Positions 36,439-37,954 of a stretch of DNA of 64,000 nt are shown here, piece after piece (the first letter of the stretch is position 1; every line of letters begins with the position of its first letter). The stretch comes from Nitrospiraceae bacterium (GTDB lineage: Bacteria; Nitrospirota; Thermodesulfovibrionia; Thermodesulfovibrionales; Dissulfurispiraceae), in NCBI GenBank assembly GCA_012517735.1, contig JAAYUK010000118.1:1-64000 (forward strand). Direction: 5' to 3'. The notes below the pieces were generated by a model. The model had not been told where the DNA came from and ran no database searches. It saw nothing but the letters and a program-made list of their open reading frames with translations. The position numbers and the translations under genes are program-made.

Positions 36439-36522
36439 GGTGTTTGAGATGACCGGTAGCGGCGTTTTCCCGTCGCTGCCATCGAAGGACATGCGCCCTT
36501 TTCTTATTGCGGGATGCAGCAT

Positions 36523-36528
36523 TATACT
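36523..36528 (+). promoter_or_regulatory. -10 box of hgcA
   Basis: TATACT ends 6 nt before an ATG (36535) that is in frame with hgcA, giving a predicted start point at or next to that ATG. The -35 region (TTTCTT at 36500-36505, 17-nt spacing) is weak. Confidence 0.5.
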
Positions 36529-36534
36529 ATCATC

Positions 36535-36690
36535 ATGAGTACTTTACAGTTGCTTTCAGTGAAGCGAACCGCCAGTTCCCAGCCGTCGTGCTGACCTCCG
36601 GTTGAGCCTGCTCAGATCGAGCGGGTAAGTACGGAGTGGACATGGAAGGACCGGATCGGAGCTCTCCGGTGCCGGATCAGCGGGTTTCGC
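36535..36690 (+). other. Upstream in-frame extension of hgcA containing a TGA codon
   Basis: In the hgcA frame an ATG at 36535 opens 19 codons ending ...SSQPSC, then TGA (36592-36594), then 32 sense codons running into the usual ATG at 36691. The part after the TGA reads VSTEWTWKDRIGALRCRISG, which looks like the segment that precedes RMRYTVRPGLYAVG in HgcA proteins. No ATG, GTG or TTG lies between the TGA and 36691. Translation of this HgcA-like segment would therefore need readthrough or recoding, unless an unusual codon is used. A sequencing error or a true nonsense mutation remains possible. Confidence 0.6.
36592..36625 (+). promoter_or_regulatory. TGA codon with downstream hairpin (possible bacterial SECIS)
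   Basis: Twelve nt after the in-frame TGA, CCTGCTC (36607-36613) pairs with GAGCGGG (36619-36625), seven pairs including one G.U, closing the loop AGATC. G is the second loop base and the loop starts 19 nt after the TGA, both within general bacterial SECIS rules as I know them. No bulged U is evident. An outer CTCCG (36596-36600)/CGGAG (36632-36636) pairing could extend it. Confidence 0.35.
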
Positions 36691-37608
36691 ATGCGTTATA
36701 CGGTCAGGCCCGGTCTGTATGCAGTCGGATTGCCTACTGAGCGGTCCGATGTCCTCGTTACTGCCAATTACAAGCTGAGTTTCGACATGGTTCGCCGTGA
36801 GCTGAAGGGGCTTAATGTCTGGCTGCTGGTGCTCGATACGAAGGGTATCAATGTCTGGTGCGCGGCCGGCAAAAAGACGTTCGGCACCGCTGAACTGGTA
36901 TGTCGCATCGGATCCTCCGGTTTGGCCGGTCGGGTAACGCATCGGTGCATTATCGTTCCGCAGCTTGGCGCCCCGGGCATAGATGCTGCGGCAGTCCAGC
37001 GGGAGACCGGATTCCGGGTTCTGTACGGTCCTGTTGAGGCAAAAGACATTGCTGCATACATTCGCATGGGATACCGGAAAACCGACGCCATGCGGACCGT
37101 GCATTTCCGGTTCCGGGATCGTCTGGTGCTGACGCCGATGGAGGTCCGTCCGGCGCTGCGGTATTATGGATATTTTGCACTGGTCGTTCTGGTATTCTTT
37201 GGCGTTGCCCCTGAAGGGATTCTCTTCAAACAGGCTCTGCAGGGAGCTGGGCCGCTGCTGATCTGTGGTTTGGCCGCCGTGTTTGCCGGTGCTGTTCTGA
37301 CGCCTGCGGCGTTGCCGGTATTGCCATTCCGGGCGTTTTCGCTGAAGGGGATGGTTGCCGGATTGCTGACGATGGCTCTCGTGCAGTGGGGGACCCCGCT
37401 GCTCCATGGCGTTCAGGGCGCGATGACCGGCGCTGTCTGGCTTCTCTGTCCAGCGGCCTCGTCGTGGTTCGGACTTCAGTTTACCGGTTCGACGACGTAT
37501 ACGAACATGTCGGGCGTCCAACGGGAGTTGCAGATCGGGATACGGCTTTATATTGGCGCGGTCGTGGTTGCGGCGCTTTTGATCGGAATTGCAAAAGCCC
37601 AATTGTAG
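36691..37608 (+). CDS. hgcA: HgcA corrinoid protein of mercury methylation
   Basis: HgcA transfers a methyl group from its corrinoid cofactor to Hg(II). The cytoplasmic corrinoid domain carries the diagnostic cap-helix motif GINVWCAAGK, whose Cys is the lower-axial cobalt ligand. RPGLYAVG, LVTANYKLSFD and LVLDTKG precede it; VPQLGAPG and YGPVEAKDI follow. Five transmembrane segments come next, starting near YYGYFALVVLVFFGV and ending with IGIRLYIGAVVVAALLIGIA. 305 residues from the usual ATG, but the HgcA-like frame extends upstream across a TGA, and 357 residues would be encoded from the ATG at 36535. hgcB follows 46 nt later. The pair is the established genetic requirement for Hg methylation. 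Confidence 0.95.
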   Translation: MRYTVRPGLYAVGLPTERSDVLVTANYKLSFDMVRRELKGLNVWLLVLDTKGINVWCAAGKKTFGTAELVCRIGSSGLAGRVTHRCIIVPQLGAPGIDAAAVQRETGFRVLYGPVEAKDIAAYIRMGYRKTDAMRTVHFRFRDRLVLTPMEVRPALRYYGYFALVVLVFFGVAPEGILFKQALQGAGPLLICGLAAVFAGAVLTPAALPVLPFRAFSLKGMVAGLLTMALVQWGTPLLHGVQGAMTGAVWLLCPAASSWFGLQFTGSTTYTNMSGVQRELQIGIRLYIGAVVVAALLIGIAKAQL

Positions 37609-37654: not shown

Positions 37655-37954
37655 ATGAAATATCTCGCCAACGTGGTTTCCCTCGAACTGATGGCCGAAA
37701 AATGCACGGGCTGTGGCCGGTGTGTCGAGGTCTGTCCGCACGGGGTTTTTGTTCTTGAAGACCGAAGGGCTGCTATTACTGATCGGGATCGGTGCATGGA
37801 GTGCGGTGCCTGCGCGTTGAATTGCGCTTTCGGTGCATTGCAGGTCAATGCCGGCGTCGGGTGTGCCCAGGCGATTATCCACAGCATGATCTATGGCGGC
37901 GAACCGACCTGCGACTGCAGCGGGCCGGCCCAGGGTCCGCGTAGCTGCTGCTAG
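37655..37954 (+). CDS. hgcB: HgcB ferredoxin-like partner of HgcA
   Basis: A 99-residue 2[4Fe-4S] ferredoxin. Cluster motifs C17-x2-C20-x2-C23-x3-C27 (CTGCGRCVEVCPHGVF) and C47-x2-C50-x2-C53-x3-C57, with the HgcB-type CMECGAC. Further conserved Cys: C70 in GVGCA, C86/C88 in CDC and the terminal pair C98-C99, thought to handle Hg(II) or reduce the HgcA corrinoid. The ATG at 37655 was chosen for its GGAG at -10; an ATG at 37643 is in frame. Confidence 0.95.
   Translation: MKYLANVVSLELMAEKCTGCGRCVEVCPHGVFVLEDRRAAITDRDRCMECGACALNCAFGALQVNAGVGCAQAIIHSMIYGGEPTCDCSGPAQGPRSCC

Follow-up and report, generated by a model that had tools for sequence, protein, structure and literature searches.

Does the in-frame TGA near the start of hgcA, the mercury methylation gene encoded in the window (the 64,000-nt stretch of Nitrospiraceae bacterium contig JAAYUK010000118.1 analysed here), interrupt the gene, or is it read as selenocysteine (Sec)? 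The initial annotation raised Sec as a possible reading. This is now supported by recurrence of the Cys-TGA arrangement in related genes, by relatives that carry Cys-Cys, by hairpins downstream of the TGA, by the presence of SelA, SelB and SelD, and by four other selenoprotein genes with in-frame TGAs in the same genome. Judging from the sequences compared, it is very probable that hgcA is intact and that the UGA at 36592 is translated as Sec, giving a Cys-Sec pair.

Selenoprotein forms of HgcA are already published, and the window gene is a well-supported further example. A 2026 review tabulates ‘Mercury methylation corrinoid protein HgcA, NF040863, CU’ as a predicted prokaryotic selenoprotein and credits Sec-HgcA to Haft & Gwadz (2023, J Bacteriol 205:e00259-22) (PMC13188914). 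Another paper, citing the same work, counts certain hgcA and hgcB homologues as possible selenoproteins (PMC11588087). The window HgcA and the Sec-HgcA of Haft & Gwadz belong to the same family, have the same Cys-Sec motif and are both predicted from an in-frame TGA, but they come from different genomes, as far as can be told. For the 2008 marine survey that the review cites beside HgcA, the CO-dehydrogenase name was without a match.

The codons around the stop-like TGA read CCG TCG TGC (Cys, 36589-36591), TGA, CCT CCG GTT GAG, and the frame closes with a TAG (Table 1). The read-through product scores 380.7 bits against the HgcA_corrinoid model NF040863 (cut-off 275), covering profile positions 1-320 of 325, and it includes the cap-helix motif N(V/I)WCA(A/G)GK as TKGINVWCAAGKKTFGT. 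The geometry described in the initial annotation, in which 19 codons lead from ATG 36535 to the TGA and 32 start-less codons then lead to ATG 36691, is correct in its coordinates, and the 32 codons contain no ATG, GTG or TTG. The TATACT element placed 6 nt 5' of ATG 36535 is indeed found there, at 36523-36528; a consensus promoter scan 5' of hgcA gave no match above chance. An ATG does occur at 36535, and a second in-frame ATG lies at 36514, 7 codons further 5'. Conservation among relatives begins near the position equivalent to ATG 36535, which is probably the start, with ATG 36514 as the alternative.

Table 1. Features of the hgcA-hgcB locus, with positions in the window.
Feature	Position	Strand	Basis and remarks
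hgcA, full read-through frame MSTLQLLSVKRTASSQPSC-U-PPVEPAQIERVSTEWTWKDRIG...	36535..37608	+	Corrinoid domain and transmembrane domain; NF040863 match
N-terminal coding segment ahead of the predicted Sec codon, 19 codons	36535..36591	+	Start probably ATG 36535
In-frame TGA, predicted to be read as Sec, second residue of the Cys-Sec pair	36592..36594	+	TGC-TGA context in relatives; Sec machinery of the genome
SECIS-like hairpin CCTGCTC-AGATC-GAGCGGG	36607..36625	+	Loop 19 nt past the TGA, its second base G
hgcB, ferredoxin, GVGC and C-terminal SCC	37655..37954	+	NF040864, 121.1 bits (cut-off 99)

Directly 3' of hgcA is hgcB, with both ferredoxin motifs present and the start MKYL, as in relatives. 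Sec-HgcB (NF040864, motif GVGU), also described by Haft & Gwadz, is likewise the partner of HgcA in the pathway, with Sec replacing a conserved Cys, whereas the window HgcB retains Cys at that site.

Is the Cys-TGA arrangement peculiar to this gene? HgcA above the cut-off occurs in 12 of the 31 genomes of the window’s family, the window’s genome included. Seven of the 12 have Cys-TGA (L033, L034, L036, L037, L039, L040 and the window’s own L042), three have CC (L032, L035, L038) and two have neither (L041, L043). Cys-TGA also occurs in a gene from another family of the same phylum (L083, genome G112; NPPC-TGA-GPPV) and in one from an uncultured Clostridia bacterium (L026; HNC-TGA-DPSA). With the six other family members, L083 and L026, eight further hgcA genes carry it at the homologous site. 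The positional match was made by motif rather than by column-by-column alignment, in a tail that is short and variable. A script scored 64 HgcA loci: nine have Cys-TGA (every row inspected individually), 32 carry CC or CxC in the tail and the others have one or no Cys, the counts of these last classes being approximate because some loci placed in them were mis-framed (L084, L089, L116). Cys-TAA or Cys-TAG at the homologous site was found in none of the 64. The initial annotation had proposed asking whether Cys aligns with the TGA in other HgcA N-termini, and by motif it does: Cys-Cys is present in the three family members noted above and in many others. Cys-Cys-tail HgcA, about half of the 64 scored, has Cys at the tail position where the window HgcA is predicted to have Sec, and needs no SECIS hairpin, as it has no in-frame TGA.

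In bacterial SECIS elements, the apical loop lies about 16-37 nt 3' of the TGA and has a G as its first or second base. The 7-bp hairpin with loop AGATC, reported initially with its stem 12 nt past the TGA, is present, falls within this range with its loop at 19 nt and an early G, and exceeds chance by fold energy. The 42 nt 3' of the hgcA TGA fold at -22.0 kcal/mol, whereas sampled window TGAs average -8.2 (sd 3.9) and only 0.4% of them fold as low. An equally good hairpin (loop at 18-23 nt, G as first or second loop base) follows only 8 of 2346 window TGAs, that of hgcA included. Comparable hairpins follow 2 of 140 TGAs at L033, 1 of 131 at L083 and 1 of 180 at L026, counts that include the hgcA genes themselves.

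A hairpin follows the TGA in every one of the nine Cys-TGA genes. Its apical loop begins 18-23 nt past the TGA, with G in loop position 1 or 2, and four distinct stem sequences are represented. The six Cys-TGA relatives in the family have CCTGC-TGTAC-GCAGG, L083 has TTCCGCC-GGT-GGCGGAA and L026 has CAGTTG-TGTA-CAACTG. Alternative pairings rival this hairpin in the minimum-energy folds of L036 and L039. The window loop lies 4 nt nearer the TGA than in most of the six family genes, an offset that counts against the Sec reading. Four TGA-less close relatives from another family of the order (L091, L095, L097, L114) have no good hairpin at 18-23 nt; L114 has one, but only at 33 nt.

Can this organism insert Sec? 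The genome encodes SelA (602 bits), SelB (335 bits, truncated at its 3' end where contig 214 stops) and SelD (331 bits; L029, contig 16), and selD itself contains a TGA in frame, read as AAGUAAKIGP. An in-frame TGA is also present in the genes of three formate dehydrogenase alpha subunits, on contigs 186, 27 and 43 (L131, L132, L133). It lies in ARI-U-HSATVPALAESFG (UHSATV) in the two full-length genes and in RL-U-HAPTV in the third frame. These TGAs sit at the classical Sec site of the enzyme (UHxxT), and a UHxP-type motif is listed in the review table (PMC13188914). Given SelA, SelB and SelD, and TGAs at the Sec sites of SelD and the formate dehydrogenases, the gene content indicates that this genome makes use of Sec decoding. 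Automatic annotation may truncate all four of these TGA-containing genes.

Of the sel genes that the initial annotation proposed to look for, selA, selB (incomplete) and selD are present, but searches of the 268-contig assembly turned up no selC (tRNA-Sec), the best Rfam matches being tRNA-Ser and other tRNAs. This and the truncated SelB are points against the Sec reading. A selC-like pattern search, and an anticodon-arm pattern allowing one mismatch, likewise recovered no selC from the assembly. None lies in the region matching the selC neighbourhood of the same genus, where the flanks are on different contigs and synteny is lost. ARAGORN finds an unmistakable tRNA-Sec in a same-genus genome (G015) and tRNA-Sec in eight other genomes of the family. 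No tRNA-Sec was found in G007, another assembly with a Cys-TGA HgcA, and its congeners G006 and G009 have one. Most likely, selC falls in a gap of the fragmented assembly.

Could the TGA instead be an ordinary leader stop, with the protein starting past it, whether from ATG 36691 or from a non-standard codon? ATG 36691 is the earliest standard start 3' of the TGA, and HgcA proteins wholly without a Cys tail do exist. However, this ATG specifies the M of the conserved FRMRY, so that a start there would cut the conserved domain, and the NF040863 match begins at residue 28 of the read-through product, well 5' of this point. In L034, L039 and the window gene, there is no start codon between the TGA and the conserved core. 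Relatives with a normal start just past the TGA, which would favour such a start, were not what we found: HgcA relatives that lack the TGA begin upstream of this point instead. The sequence ahead of the TGA is itself conserved between relatives and ends in Cys. L037 and L040 are identical at 29 of 30 nt right before the Cys codon versus 7 of 30 some 60-90 nt before it, and agreement between L033 and L036 rises from 5/30 to 20/30 to 28/30 nearing and crossing the TGA. A downstream start is therefore very improbable.

The other alternatives fare slightly worse still. Many relatives have Cys at the site, as would be expected had a TGC or TGT codon become TGA by nonsense mutation or by sequencing or assembly error, yet eight other genomes share this TGA, each with a hairpin downstream, and the HgcA domain and hgcB that follow are intact. 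We give this explanation hardly any weight. The initial annotation had listed mutation, assembly error and non-standard initiation as alternatives, and all of them are disfavoured. An open frame across the TGA is also consistent with its being read as another residue, through suppression or a genome-wide code change, but other in-frame TGAs fall at classical Sec sites (SelD, FdhA) and SelA, SelB and SelD are present, making this the least credible of the alternatives.

Under the Sec reading, the hairpin just 3' of the UGA would recruit SelB loaded with Sec-tRNA, and after Sec insertion translation would proceed into the corrinoid domain. The product would have a vicinal Cys-Sec in its N-terminal tail, where many HgcA have Cys-Cys or CxC. 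A PDB search returned solely corrinoid/iron-sulfur protein relatives of the HgcA domain and no structure spanning this tail. Selenolate holds Hg(II) more tightly than thiolate does, so a vicinal Cys-Sec would suit a role in Hg(II) transfer. The thiol/selenolate pair may bind Hg(II) or aid methylmercury release, as a counterpart of the C-terminal Cys pair of HgcB, which in the published HgcAB model possibly transfers Hg(II) or methylmercury (PMC7305189). By this analogy, Hg(II) binding or handoff, or methylmercury release, would be the most likely function of the pair. Relatives of family f2, the clade nearest the six family Cys-TGA genes, have neither a Cys pair nor Sec at the site, so Cys-Sec is not essential to every HgcA and would be an aid rather than a requirement. 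Where gene callers end a frame at TGA, the N-terminus of such an HgcA is cut short or missed, and with it goes a likely mercury ligand. Since close relatives include Sec, Cys-Cys and Cys-free HgcA, what the tail does in mercury methylation can be tested directly.

How did the Cys-Sec tail evolve? A maximum-likelihood tree built from 64 HgcA proteins (L083 was left out) needs at least three changes to explain the distribution of Cys-TGA. The window HgcA falls outside the clade of the six family Cys-TGA relatives, which also weighs against the Sec reading, and its branch, at 1.24 changes per site, is much longer than those of other HgcA in the family. Its exact place is unsure for both reasons. 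The long branch may reflect either transfer or fast evolution, and f2 may have either lost the Cys pair or never had it. Tentatively, and with rather less than even confidence, we suggest that the Cys-Sec tail arose several times, in the window gene, in the six family relatives, elsewhere in the phylum and in Clostridia, which occupy separate positions, each time with its own SECIS hairpin sequence. If so, the N-terminal tail would be a repeatedly optimised Hg(II)-handling site working with the C-terminal Cys pair of HgcB.

The tail takes a further form in HgcA of Geothermobacter and of a Desulfobacterales MAG (L020, L025), which have several repeated N-terminal CC pairs (for example SCCPT, ACCPT, TCCGP, RCCQP) that look like a multi-site metal-binding tail.
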